A stretch of DNA of 64,000 bases from a virus: the IMG/VR virus record IMGVR_UViG_3300046557_000242, positions 1 to 64,000 of that record, one strand, 5' to 3'. The translations under genes were made by a program, and so were the position numbers. Below the pieces are notes generated by a model. It did no database searches, was not told the DNA's origin, and worked only from the letters and a program-made list of their open reading frames with translations. Shown here piece after piece: positions 1,211 through 56,726 of this stretch; the first letter of the stretch is position 1; the number at the start of each line of letters is the position of its first letter.

Positions 1211-1226
1211 TTTGCATTCGTGCAAA
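1211..1226 (-). promoter_or_regulatory. Dispersed 16-bp palindrome, copy 1
   Basis: TTTGCATTCGTGCAAA, which reads TTTGCACGAATGCAAA toward the - strand gene. It sits in the divergent gap between the genes at 1187 (-) and 1289 (+). A second inverted repeat, TTGCAG-TTC-CTGCAA at 1234-1248, lies beside it. Confidence 0.75.
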
Positions 1227-1288
1227 TTTAGGCTTGCAGTTCCTGCAAACGCCCCCTATTCGAGAGACACCCCACCATGGAGGTTTTG

Positions 1289-1741
1289 ATGAGCATCGAA
1301 GACAGAGCCCTATCGGCTGCCGCCCTGAAGATCACGTCCGGTGAGCACCGCGCGCTCCTGGAGATCCGCGAGCTGTTCGCCAAGGGCACGTTCAAGCACG
1401 ACCCGGACAGCGAAGCCGATCACCCGGACGGCTTTAACATGAACTTCGCCGAGAAAGAGACCAAGTGCGGCACGAGCTGCTGCATCGGCGGATGGGTCTG
1501 GCACGCAATGAGCCGGCACCGCACAACGATCAGCCCGACTGCGGGTCACTACGTCGGCAAGGGACATGCGGACACGCTCAAGCAGCTCTACTATCCAGAT
1601 CTCGAACAGATCGACGACATGTCCTACGACGACATCACGCCGAGCGCCGCACTCGTAGCGATCGACCAATTCCTGACGACCGGCGAGGTCGACTGGTCCG
1701 TCGCCTGCGGCCTCGACCAATCGGTCGACCTCACGGCATAG
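1289..1741 (+). CDS. Hypothetical protein with a CGTSCCIGGW motif
   Basis: A 150-residue protein. GGAGG at 1279-1283 fits the ATG at 1289 better than the in-frame ATG at 1277, which overlaps that ribosome site. A Cys cluster lies near residues 60-66 (CGTSCCIGGW), followed by a helical, acidic C-terminal half ending with ALVAIDQFLTTGEV. Similar cysteine/tryptophan clusters occur in phage proteins of unknown function. It is the first gene after a divergent regulatory gap that carries the palindrome. No enzymatic motif is visible. Confidence 0.65.
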   Translation: MSIEDRALSAAALKITSGEHRALLEIRELFAKGTFKHDPDSEADHPDGFNMNFAEKETKCGTSCCIGGWVWHAMSRHRTTISPTAGHYVGKGHADTLKQLYYPDLEQIDDMSYDDITPSAALVAIDQFLTTGEVDWSVACGLDQSVDLTA

Positions 1742-1754
1742 CCATGCCTTCTCG

Positions 1755-1770
1755 CTTGCTTGAATGCAAG
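1755..1770 (+). promoter_or_regulatory. Dispersed 16-bp palindrome, copy 2
   Basis: CTTGCTTGAATGCAAG, followed by a further half-site TGCAAA at 1774-1779. It lies 89 bases upstream of the gene at 1860, with a long leader between them. Confidence 0.75.
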
Positions 1771-1780
1771 TGATGCAAAT

Positions 1781-1820
1781 ACCCCCGTTCTGATCAGCGC
1801 GCCGCCCTCACGACGGGGGT
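1781..1820 (+). promoter_or_regulatory. Leader inverted repeat upstream of the 1860 gene
   Basis: Perfect 8-bp arms ACCCCCGT (1781-1788) and ACGGGGGT (1813-1820) flank a 24-base loop in the leader between the palindrome and the AAAGGAG ribosome site. There is no U-run, so a simple terminator is unlikely. It may be a leader hairpin. Confidence 0.4.
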
Positions 1821-1859
1821 GAAGTTTCGAACCCGGCACGCAACCCCAAAGGAGCACTT

Positions 1860-2792
1860 ATGGATCCCACCGCAAACGACCCGTTCCGCTACCGCGACGT
1901 GGCCGACCAGCTGACGCAGCAGGAGCAGCCCGCTCCCGCCGTGTTCGCCCAGGCCCCGATCGCAGCCACCGAGCAGCTCAGCCAGGCTGTCGTCACCGAA
2001 ACGTCGGTGATCGAGGTTCCGGCCGCGGCTCCCGAAGCGCCGCTCGTCGGCGAGATCATCCCGCCGGCACCCGAGACGCCGCCCAGCATCCCGCTGTACC
2101 CGATCGGTCTGATCGACTTCAACCAGCCGATCGTCGTCGTCGACAGCGGCGAATACGCTGACGACCTGGAGCCCTACGACAGCGTCCAGATCGTCACGAC
2201 CCTGAAGGGCAGCTTGCACCCGATCGCGATCAGCTTCTGGAAGGACGGCGAGCAGTGTCTCGCGCAGTTCGACACGGACGGCGCATCGGTCTGCGGCGAC
2301 TTCAAGGTCGAGCAGGACCTGATCTATCCGGTCACCCGCTTCGTGGTCATCGGCCGCAAGGGTCGTAGCCTGGTCGTCGACGAGGAGCTGTACGCCTCCA
2401 AGGATGCGGCCATCGCCGAGACCGATCTCAACGACATCGCGGCGGTCCTGCCGGTCGTGATCGAGGCGCCGCAGGTCGCGGTTGAGGAGCCGGCGCCGCT
2501 CGTGCCGGCCCCGCAACTGACCGAAGCGCTCGACAGCAACGGCAGCATCGAGGCGGAAGAGCATGACGACGAAGGCCCCGCGCCCGCTGTCGTCGACGCT
2601 CCGCCGACCGAGATGTACGTCGCCAGCCGGATGCGCCGCGTCGGCGAGACGGTCCACGCCTACCGCAACGGCTTCGGCACCCGCGCCTGCACGGTCATCA
2701 AGCTGCGTCGCGACAGCCGCAAGTCGCTGCTGCTCGATCCGAAGGACGGCAACGAGCCGTACTGGGCGCTGAACAAGAACGTCCGCTACTGA
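1860..2792 (+). CDS. Hypothetical protein, Pro/Ala/Glu-rich linkers
   Basis: A 310-residue protein with a good AAAGGAG before ATG 1860. It looks modular. There is a disordered N-terminal segment rich in Ala, Pro and Glu (to about residue 80), then a compact domain of about 100 residues (IDFNQPIVVVDSGEYADD onward, including a Trp-Lys-Asp-Gly turn). A second Pro/Ala/Glu linker follows, and then a basic C-terminal domain (SRMRRVGETVHAYRNGFG... ending WALNKNVRY). No family was recognised. It is monocistronic or first in its operon, and a strong hairpin lies 17 bases after its stop. Confidence 0.65.
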   Translation: MDPTANDPFRYRDVADQLTQQEQPAPAVFAQAPIAATEQLSQAVVTETSVIEVPAAAPEAPLVGEIIPPAPETPPSIPLYPIGLIDFNQPIVVVDSGEYADDLEPYDSVQIVTTLKGSLHPIAISFWKDGEQCLAQFDTDGASVCGDFKVEQDLIYPVTRFVVIGRKGRSLVVDEELYASKDAAIAETDLNDIAAVLPVVIEAPQVAVEEPAPLVPAPQLTEALDSNGSIEAEEHDDEGPAPAVVDAPPTEMYVASRMRRVGETVHAYRNGFGTRACTVIKLRRDSRKSLLLDPKDGNEPYWALNKNVRY

Positions 2793-2808
2793 GCCTGCAA
2801 CAAAGCGG

Positions 2809-2830
2809 CCCGTCTCCTTCCGGGGACGGG
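2809..2830 (+). terminator. Hairpin, possible terminator
   Basis: CCCGTCTCC pairs with GGGGACGGG (one G-U pair) around a TTCC loop just after the 1860-2792 gene. Only a weak pyrimidine tract follows, so termination is uncertain. Confidence 0.4.
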
Positions 2831-2853
2831 TTCGCCCTCTCATGGAGAAGATC

Positions 2854-3078
2854 ATGCCGAGACGATTGGGTGACGATGCTCAGGTCAAGGATGCCTTCCG
2901 CGCCTTCGAGGCATCGCGTCTCCTGATTAATCTGATCTGCGAAGCGCCCGGCCATGTGCCCAAGGAATTTCAACCGATCGTCGAGCTGGCGCTGCAAGCG
3001 TACGGCCTGCCTCACGACTTTCCGGAACGTGTTCTCGTCAACGAACTCAACGCAGACCAGGAGCAGCACCATGACTGA
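2854..3078 (+). CDS. Hypothetical small helical protein
   Basis: A 74-residue protein. The ATG at 2854 is preferred because GGAGA at 2844 gives normal spacing; the in-frame ATG 2842 overlaps that site. The sequence is mostly helical (VKDAFRAFEASRLLINLICEA) with a charged tail. Its last bases overlap the start of the phosphoribosyltransferase-like gene, which suggests coupled translation. No family was recognised. Confidence 0.6.
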   Translation: MPRRLGDDAQVKDAFRAFEASRLLINLICEAPGHVPKEFQPIVELALQAYGLPHDFPERVLVNELNADQEQHHD

Positions 3079-3463
3079 ACCGAGATCGAAAGTCCGCATC
3101 GTCAGCGAAGCAGAGTTTGCCTCTGAGCTGCGCATTGCGCTGCAAGAGCACAACGTCGACAGCATCGGCGCAGTCACTGGCCCAGGCCGGTCCGGAGCAA
3201 TCGCCGCGGTCTACACCTCGCACATGCTGCACATCCCGTTCATCCCTTTCGGGCAGCTTTGCCCCGAAAAGTTCCGGCTTCTGATCATCGACACCGCCCG
3301 GGAAAGCGGCCGGACGCTCCGCAAGGCGGCGCGCTGGTACCGCAAGGCGAACCCGATCGTGATCGCCGTCTACGAAGAGCCGCCGCGCGTGGCCTTCTGG
3401 TACGAGGCGCCGAAGCCGCAGTTCTACCGTCACGAAATCCCGAAACTGCAGGAGGCGGCATGA
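3071..3463 (+). CDS. Phosphoribosyltransferase-like protein
   Basis: The 130-residue protein has two hallmarks of the type I PRTase fold. A loop IGAVTGPGRSGAIAAVYTS lies at about residues 36-54, where the PPi loop and flanking helix normally are. The segment LLIIDTARESGRTLRKAA near 75-92 corresponds to the PRPP-binding motif (hydrophobic strand, acidic residue, then a GRT-type turn). Only one acidic residue precedes the loop where the family usually has two, so catalysis is uncertain. It may act in nucleotide salvage or be a fold-only relative. An AGGAG precedes ATG 3071, and the gene overlaps both neighbours by a few bases. Confidence 0.6.
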   Translation: MTEPRSKVRIVSEAEFASELRIALQEHNVDSIGAVTGPGRSGAIAAVYTSHMLHIPFIPFGQLCPEKFRLLIIDTARESGRTLRKAARWYRKANPIVIAVYEEPPRVAFWYEAPKPQFYRHEIPKLQEAA

Positions 3464-3729
3464 CCGAACCAGTGTTCGATAACAACCAGTCCGCAGACGA
3501 GGGCTGGTGCATCTCCGAGTGCTTCGGCAGCGCGAATGGTCCGTGGCAGCTTCAGAAGTGCGACGAACAGGACGTCTTCAAGACCGACATCGAAGCGTGG
3601 AGGTTCGTCGTCGACTGCGCCGAAGCCGGCAGCGAATACCACAAGCAGGCACTCCAATTCCTGAAGGACCATAATCGGACAGAGCACGATTGCATCGTCG
3701 ACACCATCAAACGGAGGGCGATCGCATGA
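3460..3729 (+). CDS. Hypothetical protein
   Basis: An 89-residue acidic protein whose ATG overlaps the previous stop (ATGA), with GGAGG just upstream. Recognisable features are WCISECFGSANGPWQLQKC near the N-terminus and a helical middle (EAWRFVVDCAEAG). This pattern occurs in small phage proteins with no known role. It is translated between the PRTase-like gene and a small basic protein. Confidence 0.6.
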   Translation: MTEPVFDNNQSADEGWCISECFGSANGPWQLQKCDEQDVFKTDIEAWRFVVDCAEAGSEYHKQALQFLKDHNRTEHDCIVDTIKRRAIA

Positions 3730-3929
3730 TGATGCTGAGGCGCCGAAGGTGGCGGCACCCCTGCGATAAGGGGTCGCCGGCACAGCGCAAGCTGGGGGCT
3801 GCGTTCCGCTTCCTGATGGAAAACAGCACATGGAAGCGACATCCGAAGCCATTCGCGAAGACACAGCGCGGCCGGGCTCGCAGGAGCGAGCGCCGGTTCG
3901 TCGACGAGAACAAGCGAGCATTTGCGTGA
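3726..3929 (+). CDS. Small, very basic protein
   Basis: A 67-residue protein starting at ATG 3726 directly over the previous stop, with GGAGGG about 8 bases upstream. It is strongly basic, with many Arg and Lys from MMMLRRRRWRHPCDKG onward. It could bind nucleic acid, but no domain was recognised. Its stop overlaps the GTG start of the next gene (GTGA). Confidence 0.5.
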   Translation: MMMLRRRRWRHPCDKGSPAQRKLGAAFRFLMENSTWKRHPKPFAKTQRGRARRSERRFVDENKRAFA

Positions 3930-4468
3930 GCAGATTTTCCAACACCTGGTCCGATGCAGAAGATCAGGTCATTCGCGACAACAGACGGCTGCCGGCGAAG
4001 GAAATCGCCGAGCTGCTGCCAGGTCGTTCCGTCAGAGCAATCGCGACGCGGAGTCGCCGAATTGGCGTCTTCAAGGTGTGGGATCGCAATGAGAAGACGA
4101 TCCTGTTCGACAACTCGAACATGACAGCGAGGCAACTTCAGCGCCTACTGCCTGGCCGCTCAATCAAGAGCATCCAAACCCAACGGAGTGCGATGGGATT
4201 GAAACCCGTCTTTCGAAAGCCGGAGAAGTCGAAGCGCAAGCTCAAGCGCACTGGCAATCCGGTGATCGATGCCGTCATCGAACGGTGCGAGGAAGACAGG
4301 ATCGGGTTGAAGACGCTCGATCGAGAAATCGGTGGCCGATACTTCCAGCATTCCCCCACTGATCCGAAGGGGTTGGAGTGGATTGCTAAGGCCGTCGCCT
4401 TCTTCGGCGGCAAAGGTCTGCTGATCGACGAGAACGCCAACATCACTATCGACTGGCACGACGAATAA
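3926..4468 (+). CDS. Myb/SANT-like DNA-binding protein, two repeats
   Basis: The 180-residue protein starts at GTG 3926, overlapping the upstream stop; an in-frame ATG at 3830 is possible but lies inside the upstream gene. It has two similar helical repeats: NTWSDAEDQVIRDN...LPGRSVRAIATRSRRIG (about residues 5-50) and EKTILFDNSNMTARQL...LPGRSIKSIQTQRSAMG (about 52-93). Both have the Trp/acidic start and LPGRS turn of SANT/Myb-type helix-turn-helix units found in phage and GcrA-like regulators. The C-terminal half is unassigned. It is probably a DNA-binding regulator. Confidence 0.6.
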   Translation: MSRFSNTWSDAEDQVIRDNRRLPAKEIAELLPGRSVRAIATRSRRIGVFKVWDRNEKTILFDNSNMTARQLQRLLPGRSIKSIQTQRSAMGLKPVFRKPEKSKRKLKRTGNPVIDAVIERCEEDRIGLKTLDREIGGRYFQHSPTDPKGLEWIAKAVAFFGGKGLLIDENANITIDWHDE

Positions 4469-4480
4469 ATAGGAGCGGAA

Positions 4481-4672
4481 ATGTCAGAGATATCCGAGGA
4501 ACAAGCCGGCAAGCCTGTGCTCTGCGCCAGGCTGAACGGCAACACGCTCCGGGCGAAGTGGCCCGGCAAACGCTGGCATGGCCAATACAAGAACATCGAC
4601 GCGGTCTGCGACGCAGCTCACGAAGATGGCCTTGCAACATTCATCATCGACTACGTGGACAAGGAGGATTGA
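4481..4672 (+). CDS. Hypothetical small protein
   Basis: A 63-residue protein with AGGAGCGG before ATG 4481. It contains LRAKWPGKRWHGQYKNIDAV, a Trp/Lys-rich beta-like segment, and ends in an acidic tail. It is the last gene of the 1860-4672 cluster. No family was recognised. Confidence 0.55.
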   Translation: MSEISEEQAGKPVLCARLNGNTLRAKWPGKRWHGQYKNIDAVCDAAHEDGLATFIIDYVDKED

Positions 4673-4907: not shown

Positions 4908-4923
4908 CTTGCTTGAATGCAAA
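4908..4923 (+). promoter_or_regulatory. Dispersed 16-bp palindrome, copy 3
   Basis: CTTGCTTGAATGCAAA, with an overlapping extra TTTGC half-site at 4904-4908. It is the upstream member of a pair before the 5022 gene. Confidence 0.75.
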
Positions 4924-4994: not shown

Positions 4995-5010
4995 CATGCT
5001 TGAATGCAAA
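4995..5010 (+). promoter_or_regulatory. Dispersed 16-bp palindrome, copy 4
   Basis: CATGCTTGAATGCAAA, followed directly by the CGGAGC ribosome site and ATG 5022. The gap from site to start codon is 11 bases. Confidence 0.75.
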
Positions 5011-5021
5011 CGGAGCAAACG

Positions 5022-6470
5022 ATGTTCTACCTTGTCAGGTTGGACCGCGACGCCGACAGCAACCTCGTCGAGACGCCGCTGCCCGACTACGGCACCTTCG
5101 ATAAGGGCGCCGACGCAGCCAAGGCCTCGAAGGCCGCCGCTGCACAGACTGGCGCCAAGGTTCAGTGCCGGCGCATCGCTCAGGCCGGAGACTGGCGAGC
5201 CGCCATACAGAAGCGGCTCGAGTCCGGAGAATTGACCCGGCTTCCCAGCAAGTGGGACCTGGAGCCGATCGCCGATCACTTCGCCCATCTGTGGGCCAAC
5301 GATCCCAGCAAGATCGCTTACATCGAGAGCGAAGACCACGGGATCATCCAGAAGCTGACGGCGACGACGCCGGGCCGCTACATCACCGCCTATTACGAAG
5401 GCGGAGTCCAGGGCAGCACGGACATCACCGACGCCAAGCGTCGCACGCTGATCGCTGCGATCGACCCCAGCGGCGAGGTCTACTACGCCAGGACGCCGGA
5501 GGAGATCGAGTACGTCTACAAGAATGGTCCCGACTCCTGCATGGACGGAGACCACCAGTTCAAAGGTCTGCCGATGTGGCCGACCGGGCCCTATGGCGCT
5601 GGCGATCTGGCTGTCGCCTACACCAAGAACAGCCGGGGTCGTATCCAGTCGCGAGCCCTGTGCTGGCCTGAGAAGAAGGTTCACGGCCGATGCTATGGCG
5701 CCGTCGAGTCGATGCGAGCCACCTTGGCCGCGGAAGGCTTCACCGATCTGCGCGAAGGCACAGGCGGCAAGGTCAAACCGTTCATCGGCGCTCGTCTGCT
5801 CAAGGTCCCGCATGGCGACGCTTTCGTCATGCCCTACTTCGACGACATCAACGTCGCAGTTGATAGGGGCGACCACTTCGTCACGGTCGAGAACCGCCAG
5901 GACACTGATCACTACGTGACCAGCTCATCGAGCGGCCTGTCTTACATCCAGGCCCTATGCCCCAAGGCGAAGGTCGTCGTGCAGGTCCGCGAGATGCGGT
6001 ACGTGCATGGCGCTGACGAACTTTGGTCCTCGTCTGCGATCCAGCGCCTCGCCTTCACCTGTGATGGCAGCGGGAAGATCTGGCCCAAGACCGACACCGT
6101 CATCCTCGGCGATGGTCAGCGCTGGTCGCAGGAATACTTCGACGAGCACGGCGGCACCTGCTCCGTGAACGGGCAGCACTGGCCCAAGTCCGAGCTGATC
6201 GAGAAGAAGCCCGGCAAGTGGGTCCATCGCCTCAACGCTGACTACGAAGAGGTCGACCTGGAGCCGAAGGAGTCGCCGAAGAAGAAGCCGCGCAGCCGGT
6301 CGAAGAAGATCGTCGGCATCGACCCGGCTTCGGGGCCCGATCACACAGCCATCACGACCCTTCGCGGCAACACCGCGGACGGCTTCATCGTCGACGAGGT
6401 CCAGCTGCTCGATCCGAACCAGCCGACCGTGACCGACCTACTCCTCAATCGCCGCCGCCGGGCTGCCTAA
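5022..6470 (+). CDS. Large hypothetical protein with RNase H-like C-terminal strand
   Basis: A 482-residue protein. ATG 5022 was chosen because CGGAG sits 7 bases upstream; the ATG at 5004 lies inside the palindrome. The bulk is unassigned, with regular Cys, Trp and His residues (for example CWPEKKVHGRCYGAVESMR near 215). The last 60 residues begin KKIVGIDPASGPDHTAIT after a Lys-rich linker. This resembles the first strand of RNase H/RuvC-like nucleases such as phage terminase nuclease domains, but the rest of such a domain is absent. It heads the operon with the peptidase and RIIA-like genes. Confidence 0.55.
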   Translation: MFYLVRLDRDADSNLVETPLPDYGTFDKGADAAKASKAAAAQTGAKVQCRRIAQAGDWRAAIQKRLESGELTRLPSKWDLEPIADHFAHLWANDPSKIAYIESEDHGIIQKLTATTPGRYITAYYEGGVQGSTDITDAKRRTLIAAIDPSGEVYYARTPEEIEYVYKNGPDSCMDGDHQFKGLPMWPTGPYGAGDLAVAYTKNSRGRIQSRALCWPEKKVHGRCYGAVESMRATLAAEGFTDLREGTGGKVKPFIGARLLKVPHGDAFVMPYFDDINVAVDRGDHFVTVENRQDTDHYVTSSSSGLSYIQALCPKAKVVVQVREMRYVHGADELWSSSAIQRLAFTCDGSGKIWPKTDTVILGDGQRWSQEYFDEHGGTCSVNGQHWPKSELIEKKPGKWVHRLNADYEEVDLEPKESPKKKPRSRSKKIVGIDPASGPDHTAITTLRGNTADGFIVDEVQLLDPNQPTVTDLLLNRRRRAA

Positions 6471-12603: not shown

Positions 12604-12619
12604 TTTGTTTGTCTGCAAA
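12604..12619 (+). promoter_or_regulatory. Dispersed 16-bp palindrome, degenerate copy 5
   Basis: TTTGTTTGTCTGCAAA, a weaker match lacking the GAAT core. Its position 12 bases before ATG 12632 is typical of the series. Confidence 0.55.
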
Positions 12620-13667: not shown

Positions 13668-13683
13668 TTTGCTTGAATGCAAG
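13668..13683 (+). promoter_or_regulatory. Dispersed 16-bp palindrome, copy 6
   Basis: TTTGCTTGAATGCAAG, 42 bases before the helicase start. A related imperfect repeat, TTTGC-N7-GCAA, lies just upstream at 13645-13660. Confidence 0.75.
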
Positions 13684-15312: not shown

Positions 15313-15680
15313 GGCTGAACTATCCGCACGGCAAGCCGCCAGAGGGTGTCGACGCTCTCTGGCGGTGCGAAGCCCAGAGCTATTCCTACGTGATCGATGC
15401 CGATCGCGAGGAGTACGGGGTCACCGATCCACGCCTCGAAATGAGGTGGTATCCCGTCGACCGCAGGACGCCGAAGGGTGCCTGGGTGTGCGGTGAGTTT
15501 CAATTACTCACCGCGTTCAAGAAGAAGTTCTCGGAGTCCGAAGAGGGCGCGATCCGAGATTTCAAGGCCCGCAAAAACAAGCAGATCAAAATCCTATCCA
15601 GGCAACTGGGCAGGGCTGAACAGGAGCTGGCGCTCACCGCGCCTAATCTCTTCGATTTGCGTGTCCCGAGAGTTGCATGA
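15309..15680 (+). CDS. Hypothetical protein, TTG start
   Basis: A 123-residue protein that probably starts at TTG 15309, overlapping the helicase stop, with AAGGAG 8 bases upstream. It begins LRLNYPHGKPPEGVDALWRC, has beta-rich N-terminal sequence, then a basic coiled-coil-like C-terminal half (RDFKARKNKQIKILSRQLGR). No family was recognised. It could be an accessory to the helicase, as inferred only from translational coupling. Confidence 0.55.
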   Translation: MRLNYPHGKPPEGVDALWRCEAQSYSYVIDADREEYGVTDPRLEMRWYPVDRRTPKGAWVCGEFQLLTAFKKKFSESEEGAIRDFKARKNKQIKILSRQLGRAEQELALTAPNLFDLRVPRVA

Positions 15681-15687
15681 ATGCAAA
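15672..15687 (+). promoter_or_regulatory. Dispersed 16-bp palindrome, copy 7
   Basis: GTTGCATGAATGCAAA, overlapping the stop of the upstream gene and followed by GGAGAG and ATG 15701. The gap from site to start is 13 bases. Confidence 0.75.
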
Positions 15688-15700: not shown

Positions 15701-16459
15701 ATGAACGGTTTCGTTCTTTATCGCGGCCCGTCCGAGGTGGACGGTGAGCCTATCGTCGTCATCGCAACCGGCCTTCTGACCGGCGGCAACAACTCCAAAA
15801 CCGGCAGCATGGTGCAGGTCTACATCCTGCGCTCCGACATGAGCCCGCTCACTGCAGTTCAAATCGGCGCTGACGTTTCCATCTGCGCCGGCTGCACCCA
15901 CCGCGGCAAGGTCGTCACCGACCCGAAGACGGGCGAGCGCAAGAACGTCGGACGCTCCTGCTACGTCACCCTGTTCCAGGGCCCGCGCGTGGTCTGGGAT
16001 GCGTTCTCCCGCGGCATCTATCCCGACATCCCGCTGGCCAAGGCGCGCAAGCTCCTGGCCCACCGCAAGGTCCGGCTGGGCGCGTACGGTGATCCGGGTG
16101 CCGTGCCCTTCCACGTCTGGGAGCAGGCGCTCGATCTCGTGACCGAGCTGTCCGGCTACACCCACCTCTGGCGCCAGCATCCGACGCTGTCGGCATTTTG
16201 CATGGCCTCCTGCGACAGCGAGCAGGATCGCGAAGATGCCAAGGCTCTCGGCTTCCGCACCTTTCGTGTCCGCGGCAAGGACGATCCGAAGCTGATCGGC
16301 GAGGGCCACTGCCCTGCCTCCAAGGAGATGGGCAAGGCGACGCAGTGCGCTCAGTGCCTGCTCTGCGGCGGCTCCAGGTCACCCGCCAAGGCGGACATCA
16401 CCATCATCGCTCACGGAGTCGGCGCGAAGAACTACGAACGCGCCAAGGAGGCAGCATGA
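15701..16459 (+). CDS. Conserved phage protein with Cys-rich clusters
   Basis: A 252-residue protein starting at ATG 15701 with GGAGAG 10 bases upstream. It carries a CAGCTHRG cluster (about residue 66) followed by RSCYVTLFQGPRVVWDAF. A C-terminal set (HCPASKEMG...CAQCLLCGG) could bind zinc or an iron-sulfur cluster. This Cys arrangement recurs in phage proteins from many hosts, but I do not know a function. It begins the operon that runs to 18722. Confidence 0.65.
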   Translation: MNGFVLYRGPSEVDGEPIVVIATGLLTGGNNSKTGSMVQVYILRSDMSPLTAVQIGADVSICAGCTHRGKVVTDPKTGERKNVGRSCYVTLFQGPRVVWDAFSRGIYPDIPLAKARKLLAHRKVRLGAYGDPGAVPFHVWEQALDLVTELSGYTHLWRQHPTLSAFCMASCDSEQDREDAKALGFRTFRVRGKDDPKLIGEGHCPASKEMGKATQCAQCLLCGGSRSPAKADITIIAHGVGAKNYERAKEAA

Positions 16460-26730: not shown

Positions 26731-26746
26731 TTTGTTTGAATGCAAG
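26731..26746 (+). promoter_or_regulatory. Dispersed 16-bp palindrome, copy 11
   Basis: TTTGTTTGAATGCAAG, 10 bases before ATG 26757, followed by another GCAAA half-site at 26752-26756. Confidence 0.75.
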
Positions 26747-31520: not shown

Positions 31521-31536
31521 TTTGCTTGAATGCAAA
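31521..31536 (+). promoter_or_regulatory. Dispersed 16-bp palindrome, copy 12 (consensus)
   Basis: TTTGCTTGAATGCAAA, the cleanest match. A TTTGCTTGACC half-site and -35-like TTGACC lie directly upstream at 31509-31519, and a further GCAAA lies at 31545-31549. ATG 31549 is 12 bases away. Confidence 0.8.
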
Positions 31537-32226: not shown

Positions 32227-32242
32227 CTTGCTTGAATGCAAA
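32227..32242 (+). promoter_or_regulatory. Dispersed 16-bp palindrome, copy 13
   Basis: CTTGCTTGAATGCAAA, which runs into the AAGGAGAG ribosome site of ATG 32257 (14 bases away). Confidence 0.75.
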
Positions 32243-37420: not shown

Positions 37421-37436
37421 TGTGCTTGAATGCAAA
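37421..37436 (+). promoter_or_regulatory. Dispersed 16-bp palindrome, copy 14
   Basis: TGTGCTTGAATGCAAA, with a CTTGC half-site 12 bases upstream (37409-37413) and GCAAA at 37444-37448. It is 23 bases before the TTG start at 37460. Confidence 0.75.
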
Positions 37437-37974: not shown

Positions 37975-37990
37975 TTTGTTTGAATGCAAC
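37975..37990 (+). promoter_or_regulatory. Dispersed 16-bp palindrome, copy 15
   Basis: TTTGTTTGAATGCAAC, 32 bases before ATG 38023. A perfect small hairpin, GCCTGCA-AA-TGCAGGC (37991-38006), follows it directly and includes another GCAAA. Confidence 0.7.
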
Positions 37991-38006
37991 GCCTGCAAAT
38001 GCAGGC
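37991..38006 (+). promoter_or_regulatory. Leader hairpin before the solute-binding-like gene
   Basis: GCCTGCAAATGCAGGC, a perfect 7-bp-arm inverted repeat between the palindrome and the AAGGAG ribosome site. It could form in the mRNA leader. Confidence 0.4.
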
Positions 38007-38022
38007 TCCAAAGGAGAACTAC

Positions 38023-38910
38023 ATGAAGAAATTCTTCCTGATCGCGGCGCTCGCCCTCGTCGGCGCGCTCACGATGTCGGCGCCCTCCCACGCCCAGGCT
38101 GCGAAGTTCCGGCTCTGCACCGGCAACTCCGAGCTGAACTACGCCAAGGCCGGCCACTACCTGAAGCAGCGCGCTCAGAACGTGGACGTCGTCTACACGA
38201 AGGGCTCGATCGACAACCTCGACAAGATCGTGGCCGGCGAGTGCGACGGCGGCTTCGTCCAGTCCGACGCGCTGATGGTCTATTCCAGCCGCAACGCCAA
38301 GGCGATCTCGACGCTGGAGCGTGCCGGCGTGCTCTACCAGGAGCAGGTCCACATGATCTGCAACCGCAAGTACGACCTCGGTCGCATGGTGAACCTCAAG
38401 AAGGACATGACCATCGCAGTCGGCGTCGACGGCTCCGGCGGCAACACGACCTGGGCCGCCTTCGTCATGGCGGACAAGGATCGCTACGGCAAGGTCAGCA
38501 CGTCGCCGCTCTCGGGTGACCGCATGCTCTCGGCAGTCGCTGACGGTTCGCTGGTCCAGTGCGGCCTGATCGTCACGGCGCTGAATGCTCCGTTTATCAA
38601 GAACGAAGTGCAGAAGGCCGGCGACACGGTGATCCTGGTGGGCACCGACGACCGCGACATGACCAAGACGGCGAAGGACGCTCGCGGCCAGGCTGTCTAC
38701 ACCTACGGTGAGATCCCCGCGGACACCTACCCGCGCATCCAGCCGTCCGGCACGGTCTACGGCACGAAGTCGGTTGGCACGGTCCAGGTCGACGCGGTGT
38801 TCGTCGCCAACGTCGATTGGATCAACGCTCACGAGGACGACTACAACAAGATCCTCCGTGGCTTCAACGCTGCCAAGCCCGACATCCAGAAGCTCGCGAA
38901 GCCCCAGTAA
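38023..38910 (+). CDS. Secreted TAXI/periplasmic solute-binding-like protein
   Basis: A 295-residue protein with AAGGAGAA before ATG 38023. The first 26 residues are a clear signal peptide (MKKFFLIAALALVGALTMSA, ending SHAQA). The mature part looks like a two-lobed periplasmic binding protein of the TAXI/NMT1 group: FRLCTGNSELNYAKAGHYLK, then GECDGGFVQSDALMV, IAVGVDGSGGNTTWAAF and DRMLSAVADGSLVQCGLIV. No transporter genes are nearby. It has its own palindrome, leader hairpin and downstream hairpin, like a moron. The ligand and reason for phage carriage are unknown. Confidence 0.75.
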   Translation: MKKFFLIAALALVGALTMSAPSHAQAAKFRLCTGNSELNYAKAGHYLKQRAQNVDVVYTKGSIDNLDKIVAGECDGGFVQSDALMVYSSRNAKAISTLERAGVLYQEQVHMICNRKYDLGRMVNLKKDMTIAVGVDGSGGNTTWAAFVMADKDRYGKVSTSPLSGDRMLSAVADGSLVQCGLIVTALNAPFIKNEVQKAGDTVILVGTDDRDMTKTAKDARGQAVYTYGEIPADTYPRIQPSGTVYGTKSVGTVQVDAVFVANVDWINAHEDDYNKILRGFNAAKPDIQKLAKPQ

Positions 38911-41473: not shown

Positions 41474-41858
41474 GTACGCAAACGACAACGCGGTCCAGAC
41501 CGACATCGGCGTGATCAGAAGAGACACGCCGCTGCGGCTGGAAGTTGCCGCTCGACTCGCCTTTCCGGACGGGTCTATGAAACTGGCGAGCCTACGTCGC
41601 GAGATCGCTCGCGGTCGGCTCACCTACGAAGTGATCGCGGGCAAGCACTACACCACGCTCGCCAACATCGAGGCTATGAGAGAGTTATGTCGCGTAACAG
41701 CAAAGGCCCCCGTCTCTACAAGCGACCTTCCCGACGCGAGGGCGGCAAATTCAAACCTGCGATGTGGGTCGTCCGAGATAAGCAAAAGGTCGTCTCCACA
41801 GGAATTGCTGCGGGAGCGGATGAGACTGCGCCGCCAATCGAGGCAGAGCAGTTCCTGA
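41466..41858 (+). CDS. Excisionase-like small DNA-binding protein
   Basis: A 130-residue protein. LRLEVAARLAFPDGSMKLAS, then LRREIARGRLTYEVIAGKHY and TTLANIEAMRELC form the winged-helix excisionase pattern often found next to integrases in rhizobial prophages. The conserved region is residues ~18-72. The rest (about residue 75 onward) lies in the same DNA as the integrase start in another frame and is Arg/Ser-rich, so it may be an unstructured tail. It should direct excision against the attP core 1 kb downstream. Confidence 0.65.
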   Translation: MPEYANDNAVQTDIGVIRRDTPLRLEVAARLAFPDGSMKLASLRREIARGRLTYEVIAGKHYTTLANIEAMRELCRVTAKAPVSTSDLPDARAANSNLRCGSSEISKRSSPQELLRERMRLRRQSRQSSS

Positions 41859-42895
41859 GCAAATACCTGGCCGAGAAATTCGATCCTACTCGGCGCGCCA
41901 AGGACATCGCCAACATCCTGATCGGCGAGGTCCTCGTGATCTACGATCAGGACAAGGGCGGCGCCGACAATCCAGACAAGAACCTGTCCGGTCACATCGA
42001 GCGCCTCAATGAGTTCTGGGGCGACAAGTACCTGATCGAGGTCAACCCGAAGACCTGTCGGGACTACGTCAAGACCCGTCCTGGCATCGGCGGCGCACGG
42101 CGGGACCTCGAAGTGCTGCGCGCGGCCATCAACAATCACTCCGGCCAGAACCTGCACTTCGGCACGGTCAACGTGACGCTGCCGGCGAAGGGCGAGTCCC
42201 GCAAGGACTGGATCACGCGGCGCGAGGCTGCCGCGATCATCTGGGCTGCCTGGCGTTACCGCGAGGTCCAGACCATCCATCGCGGCGAGCGTAAGGGCGA
42301 AGAGGTCATCACCGACAAACGACCGCTTCGGCATGTCGCCCGCTTCCTGCTGATCGGCTGCTACACCGGAACCCGGGCCGGAGCCATCGCCTCAGCCTCG
42401 GTCAAGAAGGAGACGGGCAAATCGTTCGTCGACCTGGAGGCTGGCCTCTACTATCGACTCGCGATCGGCAAGCAGGCGACCAAGAAGCAGCAGCCCGTGG
42501 CACCGCTGCCGCCCCGGCTGCTGGCGCACATGCGGCGCTGGGTGGATCGCGGGATCGTCGCCGAGAACTTCGTCGAGTTCCGGGGCAAGCCGGTCAAGCG
42601 GGTCAAGAAGGGCTTCGCCAGCGCGGTGCGTCTGTCCGGGGTCAACGTCAAGGTCACGCCGCACACGCTGCGGCACACGGCAGCGACTTGGCTGATGCAG
42701 GCGGGCGTCGACGAGTGGGAGGCGGCCGGCTATCTCGGCATGTCAGTCGAGGTGCTGCGCGAGGTCTACGGCCACCATCATCCGGACTATATGAAGGGCG
42801 CCGTCGCAGGCATCACCAAGAAGACCAAGGGTTCCAAACCCAAGGAATCTGTACCCCAACCTGTACCCCAGAAGCGGTTGCAGAAATCAGCGTAG
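41687..42895 (+). CDS. int: Tyrosine site-specific integrase
   Basis: A 402-residue protein with the catalytic residues of tyrosine recombinases. Arg230 is in CYTGTRAGAI, HTLRH supplies His326, Arg329 and His330, GHHHPD gives the second His position, and Tyr368 (HHHPDYMKG) is the nucleophile. The N-terminal ~170 residues carry arm-binding and core-binding domains. The Pro/Val-rich end (SVPQPVPQK) is encoded by a CTGTACCCCA repeat. The excisionase-like gene overlaps its start by 172 bases. The attP core lies 31 bases after its stop. Confidence 0.93.
   Translation: MSRNSKGPRLYKRPSRREGGKFKPAMWVVRDKQKVVSTGIAAGADETAPPIEAEQFLSKYLAEKFDPTRRAKDIANILIGEVLVIYDQDKGGADNPDKNLSGHIERLNEFWGDKYLIEVNPKTCRDYVKTRPGIGGARRDLEVLRAAINNHSGQNLHFGTVNVTLPAKGESRKDWITRREAAAIIWAAWRYREVQTIHRGERKGEEVITDKRPLRHVARFLLIGCYTGTRAGAIASASVKKETGKSFVDLEAGLYYRLAIGKQATKKQQPVAPLPPRLLAHMRRWVDRGIVAENFVEFRGKPVKRVKKGFASAVRLSGVNVKVTPHTLRHTAATWLMQAGVDEWEAAGYLGMSVEVLREVYGHHHPDYMKGAVAGITKKTKGSKPKESVPQPVPQKRLQKSA
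42848..42871 (+). repeat. Left CTGTACCCCA repeat (candidate arm-type integrase site)
   Basis: Two tandem CTGTACCCCA units, 11 bp apart, inside the last codons of int. They match 43056-43078 on the other side of the attP core almost exactly. They are probable arm-type binding sites (inference). Confidence 0.55.
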
Positions 42896-48644: not shown

Positions 48645-48829
48645 TGAAGATCTGGAAGCGCTTGAAGCGCAAGGACATGTGCCCGGTGAAGCGAAGAGCA
48701 ATCGAGTTCCTGGAGCGAGACGACGTAGCTGCCGTGGAGATCAGCGAAGCTCGCGGCGCCGGCAATATCACCATGGTGCAGATCAGGGCTGTCAAAGGCC
48801 GGGCTTTCCGTGCCCAGTGGCTTGCTTGA
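48644..48829 (+). CDS. Hypothetical small basic protein
   Basis: A 61-residue basic protein (MKIWKRLKRKDMCPVKRRAI) overlapping the previous stop. Its stop codon lies inside the palindrome copy 17. No family was recognised. Confidence 0.5.
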   Translation: MKIWKRLKRKDMCPVKRRAIEFLERDDVAAVEISEARGAGNITMVQIRAVKGRAFRAQWLA

Positions 48830-48836
48830 ATGCAAA
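48821..48836 (+). promoter_or_regulatory. Dispersed 16-bp palindrome, copy 17
   Basis: CTTGCTTGAATGCAAA, overlapping the stop of the upstream gene and ending at the start codon of the MT-A70 gene. Here the element leaves no room for a ribosome site. Confidence 0.75.
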
Positions 48837-53182: not shown

Positions 53183-53457
53183 TTCCTCTCCAGTTCCTTA
53201 TCCAATGCGTGGATCTGACGCCACATGTCCTCGATCCTCTTGAGGAGGATCTCCTTGGTGAGCTGCTCCGGCGGCTTCTCCGGCGTCGGGTCCGGCAGCG
53301 CGTATGCGCAGTCGGCGCAGATGACCGCCCGCTTGTCCCCGATGAACGTCTTGTCCTCCAGGTCCTTGCAGCCGGCGCCGTGACAGTGGTTCAGATAGCT
53401 CCCCGGCGCCCAGCCGAAGCGCTGGGGCCGCCTGTCTTCCTTCCAGGCCAGTGACAT
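53164..53457 (-). CDS. Zinc-ribbon-like small protein
   Basis: A 97-residue protein starting over the kinase stop (TGATG). HCHGAGCKDLEDKTFIGDKR, then AVICADCAYALP, suggest a His/Cys zinc site. The C-terminal part is a helix (LKRIEDMWRQIHALDKELER). Function unknown. Confidence 0.5.
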   Translation of the reverse strand: MSLAWKEDRRPQRFGWAPGSYLNHCHGAGCKDLEDKTFIGDKRAVICADCAYALPDPTPEKPPEQLTKEILLKRIEDMWRQIHALDKELERKCASLT

Positions 53458-54137
53458 CAGCGTGCGAACCCGGTCGCCAGCGCCAGCCCTGCGGCTGCTG
53501 CAATGGCCTTCCGCGAGTTGGCGAAGCTGGTCAGCTGCGTCCTCTTGAAATGCTCGGCCATGGCCTTGTCCAGATCGGCGTAGAGCGTCTCCAGATCGCC
53601 GTCGTTGTGGATGACGAAGTCCGGCTTGATCAGGTCGATGCGCTCACTCGGATGCACTCCCCACATGATGCCGAACTTGTCGAACAGGAACTCGCCGAGC
53701 TTGTTCTTGAACTTCGCCGGGCGGGTGCCGGGGCGCTTGATCATGATGACCACGCCGCCGAGACCGCGGATCGCCGCTGACTCGTTCGGGAAGCGGACGG
53801 AGTCGTTCATTACGGACTCTCCATCTTTCACGCCGGCAGCCCAGGTGTTGGACCACAGGTCCTCGCCGATCAGCTGGCGTCCCCACTCGGTGCCCAGCGT
53901 GATCTGCGCGTAGCGCGAGGTGACGCCGAGGCACGGCACGACGGTCTCCTTGAGATCGCCCTCCAGGTAGCGGGTGATCTCGGCCGACTCCATGCCGTTG
54001 GCCTGCATCAGCACCGCGAGCATGGCCCGCAGCGGCTCGGCGATGTGCTTGCGGCGCACGCCGTACTTCTTCTCCAGGTACAGAGCCGCCGTCGTCTTGC
54101 CCGACTGCGCGAAACCCGAGAGACCGATAACCGTCAT
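53457..54137 (-). CDS. Deoxynucleoside monophosphate kinase-like protein
   Basis: A 226-residue P-loop kinase. VIGLSGFAQSGKTTAALYLE holds the Walker A (GFAQSGKT). KHIAEPLRAMLAVLMQANGM, GTEWGRQLIGEDLWSNTWAA and IRGLGGVVIMIKRPG match phage dNMP kinases such as T4 gene 1 relatives. PDFVIHNDGDLETLYADLDK is a typical C-terminal segment. It should phosphorylate dNMPs for the phage pool. GGAAGGAA precedes ATG 54137. It is the second gene behind the palindrome at 54152. Confidence 0.78.
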   Translation of the reverse strand: MTVIGLSGFAQSGKTTAALYLEKKYGVRRKHIAEPLRAMLAVLMQANGMESAEITRYLEGDLKETVVPCLGVTSRYAQITLGTEWGRQLIGEDLWSNTWAAGVKDGESVMNDSVRFPNESAAIRGLGGVVIMIKRPGTRPAKFKNKLGEFLFDKFGIMWGVHPSERIDLIKPDFVIHNDGDLETLYADLDKAMAEHFKRTQLTSFANSRKAIAAAAGLALATGFAR

Positions 54138-54151
54138 TTGCAATTCCTTCC

Positions 54152-54167
54152 TTTGCATTCAAACAAG
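54152..54167 (-). promoter_or_regulatory. Dispersed 16-bp palindrome, copy 18
   Basis: On the - strand CTTGTTTGAATGCAAA, 14 bases before ATG 54137. Confidence 0.75.
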
Positions 54168-54170
54168 CGT

Positions 54171-54635
54171 TCAGGCAGCGAGCAGCTGCCGCGTCAGATC
54201 GATGGCGTCCCACAGCGTGGTGACGCGGTAGCCGATGATGTGGTTGACCATCGCGTGCTCGTGCGGATTCGAGCCGTCATCTTCCATGGCCACCACGATC
54301 GGGATGCCCTGAGAATCGGCCCAGGCCAGCTCAAGCACGGTGCCGATCGAGACCTTCGTGGCGCCCAGCAGGTTGACCAGCAGCACGTCGCAGCGCATCG
54401 CGTCCCAGCGGTCCCGGACCGTGAGGCCCTTTGGCGTTGACATCGGCGACTTCAGCCGCTCGGTCTCCTTTGCGGCGTCGGTGAACACACCGATCGCCTT
54501 CATGTGCTCCTGCTCGCGCAGGGGGGAGAGCCCCTTGATCCCGAACTGCGAGAGTTCCGCTTTCGCGTACTCCCGCCAGTCGGTGGCGCCTTCGAAGTTC
54601 AGACCTGAGATCGGGCCGGCGAGATAGACGAGCAT
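54171..54635 (-). CDS. Nucleoside 2-deoxyribosyltransferase-like protein
   Basis: A 154-residue protein with TAAGGAGGC before ATG 54635. LVYLAGPISGLNFEGATDWR is the start of the nucleoside 2-deoxyribosyltransferase/N-glycosidase fold. RDRWDAMRCDVLLVNLLGAT and VSIGTVLELAWADSQGIPIV (with the conserved Gly-x-x-x-Glu) are the other hallmarks. It could shuttle deoxyribose between bases or hydrolyse a nucleotide. It completes the nucleotide-metabolism set. Confidence 0.75.
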   Translation of the reverse strand: MLVYLAGPISGLNFEGATDWREYAKAELSQFGIKGLSPLREQEHMKAIGVFTDAAKETERLKSPMSTPKGLTVRDRWDAMRCDVLLVNLLGATKVSIGTVLELAWADSQGIPIVVAMEDDGSNPHEHAMVNHIIGYRVTTLWDAIDLTRQLLAA

Positions 54636-54648
54636 TGAAGCCTCCTTA

Positions 54649-54664
54649 TTTGCATTCATGCAAG
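54649..54664 (-). promoter_or_regulatory. Dispersed 16-bp palindrome, copy 19
   Basis: On the - strand CTTGCATGAATGCAAG-type core, read here as CTTGCATGAATGCAAA; 13 bases before ATG 54635. It overlaps the region just before the 54668 stop. Confidence 0.75.
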
Positions 54665-54667
54665 CGA

Positions 54668-56629
54668 TCAGGCAGCCAAAGACCGTGCGGGCACCCGCAC
54701 GACCCGGCGTCCCGGACGCCACTTGCCCTTCTGCATCGTGAGCAGCGAGCGCTTCCCGTCCGGATACTGAATGGTCACGGTGACCGCCCAGCCCGACAGG
54801 CCCTTGTTGTAGCCGTGGCGCAGGTTCATGACGCCGGAGACGTACACGCCCTCCATGATCTCGGGGCTGTGTTTGTCACCGATCGACATCTTGCGGCCGG
54901 CCTTGGCGAAGCCGTTCACGGTGCCACGAGCGCCGTTCGCGCCGCGGAAGCCGTGGTTGCCGACCTCGATGCCGTCGATCAGGTAGCTGTATCCATCGAC
55001 GCACCACTCCACCAAGCCACCCAGCTCGGGCCGCTTGAGGCGCACGGCGTGCTCCAGCAACGAGAACCGCGGCAGCGGCATGTCGTTGTCCAGCGCGTAG
55101 GAACGCTGCTCGACGTAGTTGAGGTAGGCATCCTCCAGCTTGAGTCCGTAGCGGACGTTCGTGCCGTCCATACGGTACCTGCCCTCGCGAGCGTACTTCT
55201 CCAGCGCCAGATCGTGGTTGCCCTCGGCTATGATCGCCTTGCGGTTCTCACGAGCCAGCAGCGACAGGAAGTCACCCACGCCCTCGACCTCGTTCTCCAC
55301 GCTGTCACGGCCACGAATGGCCATCTCGTAGCTGTGGGCGTTGTCGTGGATGTGGTGGTGGTTCCTCGCCTCGTTGTCGAAGATGTCGTGCAGGATGATG
55401 TTCTCGGGATCGAGAACGTCCACCAAGCTGTTGCGGAGCTGCGCCTTTCCGCCACGCATGTCCCATCCGAAGATGGCCATGCAGTTGGTCTGGTCGATCT
55501 TGCGGACGTGGATGTCCGGCATGGTGACAGCCTTGACGCGATGGCCGACCGTGACCTCGGCGTTCGCCACGTAGGCGTCGAGGTCGTAGAACGAGCCGTC
55601 GTCGTCGTTCGCCGTGATCTGCCGGCAGAAGATGTCGCCATCCTCGTCGAACTGAACCACGGTGGCGCCGATGATCTGGTGGAAGATCGACTTCACGCCC
55701 GCCTTGCGGGGGATGATCTTCGGTCGCGTGCAGGCGCCCGACGTCATGACCTGGTGGGCCTGGATCGTCGGATCGGTGGACGGGACGGACTTCAGCTGGC
55801 GCTTGGCGTGCGGAAACACGGCCCAGCGGCCCCGGCTGTACGTCACCAGGTCGGAGATCGGCTGCGACGCGGTCGGCAGCGTGTTCATCTCGCCGCAGAA
55901 CACGAAGTTGTCGCCGATCTTCATCTGGCCAAAGCACAGGTGCTCAGCCAGCTCGGGGGCGTACTCGCGCGCCTGCGGGTCGTTCTCGGACCACCACTGC
56001 GTCTCGTAGGTCCAGGGGCCGACGATGATCTCGGCGTCGATGTAGGCTGCATAGGCCTGCAGATTGACCCAGAACTCCTCATGGAGGAGAGCGTCATTCT
56101 GCGCGCCCGTGAAGATGAAGTTCCGGTTGCGGGAGTCCTTGATGGCGTCGACCTTCAGGGTGTCGACCATCCAGGTCCGCGGCCGGCCTTCCTTCTCCAC
56201 GTAGCGACGGTGCTTCTGCGACCAGGTACGCAGCATCGGCGTGTCGACGATGACGGCATCCGGGTTGATGACGGGGTATTTCGATCGGGTGATGAGTTCG
56301 GTAACCTCGGCCGAGAGCGTCTTCGCCCGGATCAGCGGGTCGACTTCTTCGGCGGACAGTTCTTCGCCACCTGAGGTGACGGTAGCCTTGGGCTCAGGCG
56401 GAACGTACAGCGACCAGTCGATCGCGAAGTTCTCTTTGCGCTTGCGCTTCAGCGCCTCTTCAGCGCGAACCCAGTTCGGATAGTTCAGTCCTTCGACGCG
56501 CTCCGCGGTTTTGGTCGCGGAGGCAATGCCTCCACGCGAGCCCTGCGGGTGATAGCCCTGCTTCAGCAGATCTTCGATGACCTGCTTTCTGCGAGCGCGT
56601 TCTTCGGTAGCGAGCGGTTGAAAAGTCAT
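54668..56629 (-). CDS. Large metallophosphoesterase-like phage protein
   Basis: A 653-residue protein; ATG 56629 was chosen (AGGGC upstream). The N-terminal ~60 residues (EERARRKQVIEDLLKQGYHP) look like a small HTH-type helix set. From about residue 370 a calcineurin-like phosphoesterase pattern appears: ILHDIFDNEARNHHHIHDN, then IIAEGNHDLALEKYAREG and EVGNHGFRGANGARGTVNG. These supply the GNH(D) and GNHG motifs. It resembles large phage phosphoesterases such as T5 A1-type proteins. It may degrade nucleic acid or act on a nucleotide. The middle is unassigned. Confidence 0.65.
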   Translation of the reverse strand: MTFQPLATEERARRKQVIEDLLKQGYHPQGSRGGIASATKTAERVEGLNYPNWVRAEEALKRKRKENFAIDWSLYVPPEPKATVTSGGEELSAEEVDPLIRAKTLSAEVTELITRSKYPVINPDAVIVDTPMLRTWSQKHRRYVEKEGRPRTWMVDTLKVDAIKDSRNRNFIFTGAQNDALLHEEFWVNLQAYAAYIDAEIIVGPWTYETQWWSENDPQAREYAPELAEHLCFGQMKIGDNFVFCGEMNTLPTASQPISDLVTYSRGRWAVFPHAKRQLKSVPSTDPTIQAHQVMTSGACTRPKIIPRKAGVKSIFHQIIGATVVQFDEDGDIFCRQITANDDDGSFYDLDAYVANAEVTVGHRVKAVTMPDIHVRKIDQTNCMAIFGWDMRGGKAQLRNSLVDVLDPENIILHDIFDNEARNHHHIHDNAHSYEMAIRGRDSVENEVEGVGDFLSLLARENRKAIIAEGNHDLALEKYAREGRYRMDGTNVRYGLKLEDAYLNYVEQRSYALDNDMPLPRFSLLEHAVRLKRPELGGLVEWCVDGYSYLIDGIEVGNHGFRGANGARGTVNGFAKAGRKMSIGDKHSPEIMEGVYVSGVMNLRHGYNKGLSGWAVTVTIQYPDGKRSLLTMQKGKWRPGRRVVRVPARSLAA

Positions 56630-56677
56630 TTTGCCCTGTGGTTGGTTGGGAACCCGGAACCACGAGGGAGTGCCTAC

Positions 56678-56699
56678 CCCCGAGATTTCGGCCTCGGGG
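56678..56699 (-). terminator. Hairpin in the leader of the metallophosphoesterase gene
   Basis: CCCCGAG pairs with CTCGGGG around an 8-base loop. It lies downstream of the palindrome at 56711 in transcription direction, so it is either a leader hairpin or an end signal for the lysis operon. No U-run. Confidence 0.4.
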
Positions 56700-56710
56700 A
56701 TAGCACAGAA

Positions 56711-56726
56711 TTTGCATTCGTGCAAA
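56711..56726 (-). promoter_or_regulatory. Dispersed 16-bp palindrome, copy 20
   Basis: On the - strand TTTGCACGAATGCAAA (+ strand TTTGCATTCGTGCAAA), identical to copies 1 and 8. It heads the 56629 gene, 81 bases away. No copy occurs further right in the window. Confidence 0.75.

Follow-up and report, generated by a model that had tools for sequence, protein, structure and literature searches.

Dispersed palindromic sites in the window and its relatives

The sequence analysed here (hereafter, the window) covers 64,000 of the 65,592 bases of the IMG/VR record IMGVR_UViG_3300046557_000242, labelled G000. The window encodes a replication initiator, a primase/helicase, an SSB protein, a DnaQ-like exonuclease, a deoxynucleotide kinase, a ThyX-like protein and a tyrosine integrase, together with a class II ribonucleotide reductase assigned by synteny with Bradyrhizobium phage BDU-MI-1 (KY940711.1, 121,342 bp). 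This phage, which carries a tail sheath gene, is the closest named relative found; window positions 30,001-54,000 are 42% aligned with it at 77% identity. Twenty copies of a 16-bp palindromic site are distributed over the window (Table 1). We consider them predicted operators, or stoperator-like sites, of a Cro/C1-type repressor encoded at 18746-19447, which would form a genome-wide silencing network in lysogeny, and place the probability of this reading at about 0.78.

The 20 sites had been listed in a preliminary description of the window, and direct reading confirmed the 16-mer at every one of these positions. Scored with a symmetric weight matrix built from them, the sites reached 16.0-27.3 bits and the next best position in the window 9.8 bits, while order-2 Markov sequences gave 0.25 matches of at least 14 bits per 64 kb. 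The matrix was trained on the same 20 sites, and independent checks therefore weigh more. The pattern YTTGCWTGAATGCAA, with at most one mismatch, produced 12 + 5 matches in the record of the window versus none for the reversed control. According to the gene calls made here, 19 of the 20 sites are intergenic (less than half coding), compared with 85% of 16-mers being mostly coding (p = 3.3e-15), so the sites are much rarer within genes than expected by chance. All 20 face the adjacent gene, in agreement with the direction towards the headed gene described earlier for both strands. The statement that most sites lie 10-40 bases before a start codon held for a small majority: 12 sites are within 40 bases of a start, one of them overlapping the called start by one base, and the other eight lie at 58-148 bases. 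The additional downstream half-site of the GCAAA type, also described earlier, accompanies 74% of 19 window sites versus 11% in a control stretch.

As the preliminary description had proposed, the weight matrix was applied to relatives, and many sites were recovered in genomes absent from its training. At 14 bits or more, the unmodified window matrix found 33 sites in BDU-MI-1, 26, 34, 24 and 24 in the bradyrhizobial records G002, G003, G005 and G007, respectively, and 38 in the Methylobacterium indicum plasmid pVL1_2. Gene-placement statistics cover the window and BDU-MI-1, because the simple gene caller performed poorly for G002, G003, G005 and G007 (coding fraction 0.37-0.70); in BDU-MI-1, 31 of the 33 sites are intergenic and 31 point at the adjacent gene. 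At three or fewer mismatches, all 12 records searched gave 14-49 matches (both strands counted) versus 0-1 for the reversed control. Sites accompanied the repressor at each of 20 loci inspected, namely L034 and 19 of the 22 IMG/VR loci. Each of 27 primase loci had one or more sites scoring 14 bits or higher; 22 of these loci include the repressor gene, and several share contigs with the 22 IMG/VR repressor loci. The Sinorhizobium plasmid pLM21S1 (L092:6449-7090), which has the DNA-transfer protein in common with these phages and carries an annotated sigma factor and other helix-turn-helix (HTH) proteins, showed no site of at least 12 bits in its first 50 kb and no repressor homologue at E 1e-3.

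The sites are specific to the phage. In the 8.8-Mb genome of B. hipponense (G019), which holds locus L034, 26 of the 27 listed matches at two or fewer mismatches fall inside a 122-kb prophage on contig C262 and one on C96, two palindromic places being listed on both strands. This concentration in the prophage makes a host factor unlikely. Sites of a host regulator, for example a CRP/FNR-type factor such as FixK2, would suit the known Bradyrhizobium hosts, and TTGC-N6-GCAA formally fits the FixK2 palindrome, whose box is TTG(A/C)-N6-(T/G)CAA. However, besides the near-absence of matches outside the prophage, the sites directly adjacent to start codons are too close to the gene for an activated promoter to fit in between, and FixK2 or another host factor was rejected as very improbable.

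Sites are few among the late genes. The preliminary description placed none before the tail and lysis genes, which is correct for the window. As a restriction to non-structural genes, the statement did not extend beyond it: a site lies 36-64 bases ahead of the capsid gene in all five bradyrhizobial records in which this gene was located (BDU-MI-1, G002, G003, G005 and G007), so the restriction holds as a property of the window. The structural region of BDU-MI-1 has a further site ahead of gene 76627-76914, and most other structural genes there are without sites.

Several features point to a temperate lineage. Contig C262 contains a 48-52-bp stretch of a tRNA-Met gene twice, at about 2737-2788 and 124751-124802, with an integrase gene adjoining one of the two copies; these repeats are the probable attL and attR of a prophage of about 122 kb. 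The ends of this element differ from those of the IMG/VR prophage record, which is 118,885 bp long. Plasmid pVL1_2 is circular (128,167 bp) and carries capsid, terminase, tail and ParA genes, and the ends of G003 share a 10.3-kb repeat with 99.9% identity, as expected for a circular molecule. The prophage integrated in B. hipponense and the circular form of pVL1_2, a plasmid and distant relative, together indicate that the lineage is temperate, and the integrase gene of the window suggests the same for its own phage.

Table 1. Predicted operator sites, weak operator copies and relevant genes in the window
Feature	Position	Strand	Remarks
Site TTTGCACGAATGCAAA	1211..1226	-	Far from start; putative -10 (GCTA) at 22 bases, counted from start of site, then inverted-repeat leader
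Site CTTGCTTGAATGCAAG	1755..1770	+	Extra GCAAA half-site downstream
Site	4908..4923	+	First of pair ahead of gene 5022-6470; TTGC box upstream
Site	4995..5010	+	Start-adjacent class; upstream TGCC box
Site	12604..12619	+	Weakest of those listed, 16.0 bits; similar flanks at G003 89107 and G007 30830 (by eye)
Site	13668..13683	+	Ahead of helicase gene; GCTAA at -10 position
Site	15672..15687	+	Start-adjacent class
Cro-like HTH_3 protein	18070..18339	+	89 aa; second candidate binder; gene close to that of repressor in most relatives
Repressor candidate	18746..19447	-	233 aa; N-terminal HTH of Cro/C1 type; C-terminal domain similar to LexA/CI (weak fold comparison)
Weak operator copy TTTGCGTGGATGCTAA (+ strand letters)	19609..19624	-	9.8 bits; upstream of repressor gene; kept in BDU-MI-1 and in most relatives
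Second weak copy TTCTCGGGATTGCAAA (+ strand letters)	19645..19660	-	Below 6 bits in window; chosen by alignment
Site	20417..20432	-	Between divergent 19747-20358(-) and replication-initiation gene 20483-21265(+); conserved in BDU-MI-1
Site	23031..23046	+	7 bases past primase/helicase stop codon; ahead of SSB gene
Site	23890..23905	+	Start-adjacent class
Site	26731..26746	+	3 bases past stop of DnaQ-like gene
Site	31521..31536	+	Start-adjacent class; extra half-site over start region
Site	32227..32242	+	Start-adjacent class; TGTC box; GGAG begins one base past site
Site	37421..37436	+	Start-adjacent class
Site	37975..37990	+	Ahead of NMT1-like gene
Tyrosine integrase	41687..42895	+	Relative in prophage G007 55% identical, beside tRNA-Met att copy
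Site TTTGCTCTAATGCAAA	46912..46927	+	Window form closest to published P1 C1 operator
Site	48821..48836	+	Overlaps end of short reading frame upstream
Site	54152..54167	-	33-base gap between co-directional genes
Site	54649..54664	-	32-base gap between co-directional genes
Site	56711..56726	-	Ahead of DNA-transfer-protein gene; GCTATC at -10 position, then inverted repeat in leader

One of the genes headed by a site in the window (37984-38910) encodes an NMT1-like/TAXI solute-binding protein, normally part of a transporter. Such a gene is also present in pVL1_2 (54636-55619); the BDU-MI-1 and pVL1_2 proteins are 29% identical. By eye, the genes upstream of 54152, 54649 and their counterparts in several phages seem to end in AA followed by the stop codon just before the site, and part of the TG(C)C box at these two sites overlaps the conserved coding end of the C-terminus.

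Core, flanks and two classes of site

Flank statistics were calculated for sites of at least 17 bits with clear orientation and 130 bases of flank. The bradyrhizobial set comprised 142 sites from six phages: 19 of 20 from the window, 28 of 33 from BDU-MI-1, 22 of 26 from G002, 29 of 34 from G003, 21 of 24 from G005 and 23 of 24 from G007, the denominators being sites of at least 14 bits. For pVL1_2, the set included 28 of 38 sites. Owing to the end repeat of G003, at least two sites are counted twice in statistics by site, but not in those by ortholog group.

The core consensus of the 142 oriented sites is YTTGCWTGAATGCAAA, with the right half, GAATGCAAA, being the stricter one. The core is palindromic (TTTGC-N6-GCAAA), and asymmetry is confined to the centre and the flanks. 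An inverted repeat located directly ahead of the Shine-Dalgarno sequence, as at many of these sites, might also act at the RNA level as a leader hairpin controlling translation. However, of the 142 sites, only 18% can form all six outer pairs; the bases opposed at 5/10 are T-T in 82 sites, and those at 0/15 are C-A in 39. Since pairing is not kept, the hairpin was rejected, and we regard it as scarcely credible.

Upstream of the core, TG is found at positions -10/-9, often as TG(C/T)C (TGYC). The tetramer TGYC begins exactly at -10 in 45 of the 142 sites versus a background of 1.2 per position; counted by orthology, it is present in 9.7 of 37 ortholog groups versus a background of 0.34 (maximum 3.05). 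Downstream, half-sites (GCWAA, GCWAG or GCTA) occur 3-18 bases past 44% of the sites versus 3% in a control stretch, and GCTA stands at exactly +22 in 11 of the 142. The mean major-base frequency in ortholog groups of at least four sites was 0.94 for the core, 0.72 for the TG box and 0.59-0.65 for the flanks.

The sites form two classes. In the start-adjacent class, defined by a Shine-Dalgarno sequence and a start codon within 25 bases of the site, TG at -10 is present in 12 of 14 ortholog groups, compared with 7 of 23 among the others (p = 0.002). Sites with GCTA mostly have no TG (11 of 15; p = 0.025 by site, p = 0.11 by ortholog group). No significant mutual exclusion was observed between the TG box and the downstream half-site (p = 0.09).

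The -10 element of Caulobacter promoters has the form GCTANAWC. At site 56711, the left half TTGCAC lies 17 bases from the hexamer TATCCC (counted by hand), and the two make a plausible host promoter. At BDU-MI-1 76925, a site of the structural region, and at similar sites in relatives, TTGACA stands 17 bases before TTATAC, with the palindrome directly after (by eye). Strong inverted repeats, also identified by eye, directly follow the promoter-type sites 56711, 1211 (minus) and BDU-MI-1 52340 in the leader, as exemplified in BDU-MI-1 by TGCTACCCCC...GGGGGTAGCA; they possibly mark a protected or regulated 5' leader.

The preliminary description had offered, as its second reading, a phage-specific promoter or activator site. 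In this form, TG(YC)-N6-YTTGCWTGAATGCAAA would recruit the host RNA polymerase together with a phage factor and drive the early and middle genes. The fixed position upstream of genes, the strict polarity, the scarcity of sites among late genes and the constant offsets of TGYC and GCTA given above all fit such an element. Against it, GGAG begins 0-3 bases past the site in 34 of the 142 sites, and a transcript starting downstream of the site would therefore miss the GGAG; the TG(YC) stretch is also often too G+C-rich for a -10 element (by eye). A search of nine records for sigma-70 domains gave no match to Sigma70_r2, and Sigma70_r4_2 was matched in one record only (G018, three matches, all under the cut-off, best E 4.7e-6). 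This reading thus proved the weaker of the two, and we consider it unlikely. The spacing between TG(-10) and TTGC equals that of the -24/-12 elements of sigma-54 promoters; a sigma-54 reading was rejected, as the second G of the -24 element hardly occurs (8% G at -8, and 0% among start-adjacent sites).

The candidate repressor and its possible competitor

For the repressor candidate, the preliminary description gave a span of 18746-19468. Its start is most likely the ATG at 19447, as indicated by the gene call and by the start in BDU-MI-1. The HTH_26 profile matched the BDU-MI-1 orthologue over the cut-off (4.5e-6) and the window protein just under it (3.7e-4). For HTH_3, two matches were obtained in G000: the repressor candidate below the cut-off and an 89-aa Cro-like protein over it. 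No Pfam S24 match was found for the repressor at E 0.01, and a sequence search of PDB returned chance-level matches only.

A search of the phage collection with the repressor protein (E <= 1e-3) gave BDU-MI-1 as the sole match, with 73% identity. Identity was 60-84% across the 22 IMG/VR loci, 42-55% for more distant repressors reached via the primase, and 35% for the repressor of pVL1_2. Every repressor inspected (20 loci, 14 sequences and 6 sequences, in overlapping sets) has the recognition helix [AS]PST-x-LR. At 35-55% identity (L084, L085, L087, L088 and pVL1_2), the repressor keeps this helix and the sites keep TTGC...GC(C)AA, the pVL1_2 sites being TTTGCATGAATGCCAA-like and those of L087/G016 mostly TTGCARGNATGCAAA. 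The proposed linkage of the sites to the repressor rests on this co-occurrence.

Weak copies of the site precede the repressor gene at about -168 and -204 from its start. The copy at 19645 has its BDU-MI-1 counterpart at 15898 with 13.9 bits, and both blocks are conserved in the alignment of the window with BDU-MI-1. Both copies are found in 8 of 14 loci (L012, L016, L017, L018, L024, L027, L029 and L031), and one copy in three more (L023, L032 and L020). A scan of 18000-21000 with the sigma-70 consensus yielded no promoters.

The second candidate reader is the Cro-like HTH_3 protein, which might bind the sites alone or in competition with the repressor. As in lambda-type switches, its gene is close to that of the repressor (43 of 51 loci or records); five of the eight exceptions are cut off close by, and the other three belong to one record, G003. 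In L085, L087, L088 and pVL1_2, its helix diverges from TTQAIGKYE to TIPAIAAYE, TTSSVRWYL, TKQTVTHYK and HENAVRLLE, while the half-site is kept. In G003, which has 34 sites and the repressor, no Cro-like homologue was detected at E 1e-3. The divergence of the helix and the case of G003 therefore favour the repressor as the reader, although they do not prove it, and a network read mainly by the Cro-like protein appears improbable, though it might share the sites with the repressor.

In one prophage (L033:4607-4834, minus; G007:18313-19408, minus), a second protein combines an HTH domain 49% identical to that of the repressor with a different C-terminal part. It stands alone among the sequences compared and could compete for the same sites.

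Several observations weigh against assigning the sites to the repressor. The structural model of the repressor is modest (predicted local distance difference test score, pLDDT, 67), and its fold matches in PDB, which for the C-terminal part include LexA and the C-domain of lambda CI, all have E > 0.01. With so little variation in the recognition helix, no motif change can be attributed to a helix change. Whichever protein binds, sites and repressor can be expected to be inherited together within a single phage lineage, and the frequent proximity of the Cro-like gene counts in the same direction. No weak operator precedes the repressor gene in 2 of the 14 loci (L021 and L022), and its presence in L033 is doubtful. 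Nor does this reading come with an established explanation for the TG(YC) box upstream of the core. In pVL1_2, the gene calls make 10 of the 38 sites of at least 14 bits mostly coding; few sites there have the TG box (18%) or the downstream half-site (11%), and 14 of 28 oriented sites read GCCAA in the right half. Finally, G013/L083 (21.7 kb), whose repressor is 52% identical, lacks strict matches and has only one 14-bit site, with TTGA replacing TTGC.

A predicted operator network and its relation to known systems

Of the two readings in the preliminary description, the network of repressor operators is the one we favour: the sites are phage-specific, occur together with the repressor down to 35% identity, have weak copies at the repressor gene and are oriented in short intergenic gaps. 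A repressor dimer would bind TTTGCWTGAATGCAAA, with one recognition helix per TTGC/GCAA half, and the third half-site on the gene side, or the TG(YC) box 10 bases upstream, may provide extra contacts or polarity. Sites far from a start codon would act as ordinary operators over promoters, covering the -35 region in lysogeny; at some of them, the left half TTGCAC may itself occupy the place of the host -35 element, with GCTA as the -10. Sites ahead of the Shine-Dalgarno sequence, often a few bases past the previous stop codon and in several cases between co-directional genes, may serve as oriented roadblocks to read-through transcription. The weak copies ahead of the repressor gene could mediate autoregulation, and upon induction all units headed by a site would open together.

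The origin of polarity in a palindromic core is the most interesting point. In a core that is itself palindromic, the direction has to be set by the asymmetric centre (TTGAAT) together with the TG box or the third half-site. We tentatively suggest, as a possibility with the odds somewhat against it, that start-adjacent sites are palindromic, dimer-bound polar stoperators made one-way by the TG(YC) box at its fixed 10-base offset, so that they halt elongating RNA polymerase from one side only, and that the promoter sites without this box are classical operators.

In general, dispersed-operator networks are recognised by near-identical sites restricted to a phage genome and located upstream of genes, by the presence of an HTH protein and by a temperate lineage, all of which are seen here. 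The phiC31 repressor likewise has dispersed palindromic operators (conserved inverted repeats) ahead of early genes, a likeness of arrangement. To our knowledge, detailed accounts of oriented roadblock sites come mainly from the cluster A mycobacteriophages. In phage L5 of this cluster, more than 20 sites are dispersed over promoters and short intergenic spaces with an orientation that follows transcription, and inverted stoperators lose function (PMC9283540). The L5 sites are described there as asymmetric 13-bp sequences bound by a monomer with an HTH and a 'Stoperator' domain (PMC9283540), whereas the core here is a 16-bp palindrome and the regulator would have one C1-type HTH and, on weak fold evidence, a LexA/CI-like C-terminal domain.

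Phage P1, whose lysogen is a plasmid, has 22 C1 operators dispersed on its genome (PMC8546580). The P1 consensus ATTGCTCTAATAAATTT has up to 12 of 17 letters in common with single sites and 9 of 17 with the consensus here (random expectation 3.6, standard deviation 1.7), but the P1 operator is asymmetric and the operator here palindromic. Form TTTGCTCTAATGCAAA (window 46912; BDU-MI-1 42199; G003 4400) shares TTGCTCTAAT with the P1 consensus, which we ascribe to chance or convergence. No similarity between P1 C1 and the repressor was detectable (BLASTP E 6.8; hhalign probability 0.2%), and kinship was rejected at the protein level. In SPbeta, the prophage master repressor MrpR (YopR) acts on a repeated intergenic element, SPBRE, which was initially identified in silico and subsequently confirmed by chromatin affinity purification and sequencing (ChAP-seq); in contrast to the protein proposed here, MrpR has a tyrosine-recombinase fold, and its motif is 15 bp long (PMC10516654).

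The kind of system is known from L5, P1 and SPbeta, and the predicted network represents an independent lineage with a distinctive site. Among the titles and the beginnings of abstracts listed from the openly licensed literature on BDU-MI-1, temperate Bradyrhizobium phages, and phage-plasmids and their immunity, we found no description of the network, and a text search of a paper on virulent Bradyrhizobium phages gave no mention of BDU-MI-1.

The group concerned comprises temperate phages and phage-plasmids of about 100-130 kb from nitrogen-fixing Bradyrhizobium and from Methylobacterium, for which we found no regulatory study. For these phages, the predicted network would offer a testable immunity system consisting of one protein, one motif and dozens of predicted targets. 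Should the tentative scheme for start-adjacent sites be true, stoperators would have evolved a second time, independently, in phages unrelated to L5, and polarity would be added to a palindrome by its flank rather than by a monomeric two-domain repressor. A palindromic system with L5-like polarity would allow a direct test of how a bound repressor stops polymerase in one direction.

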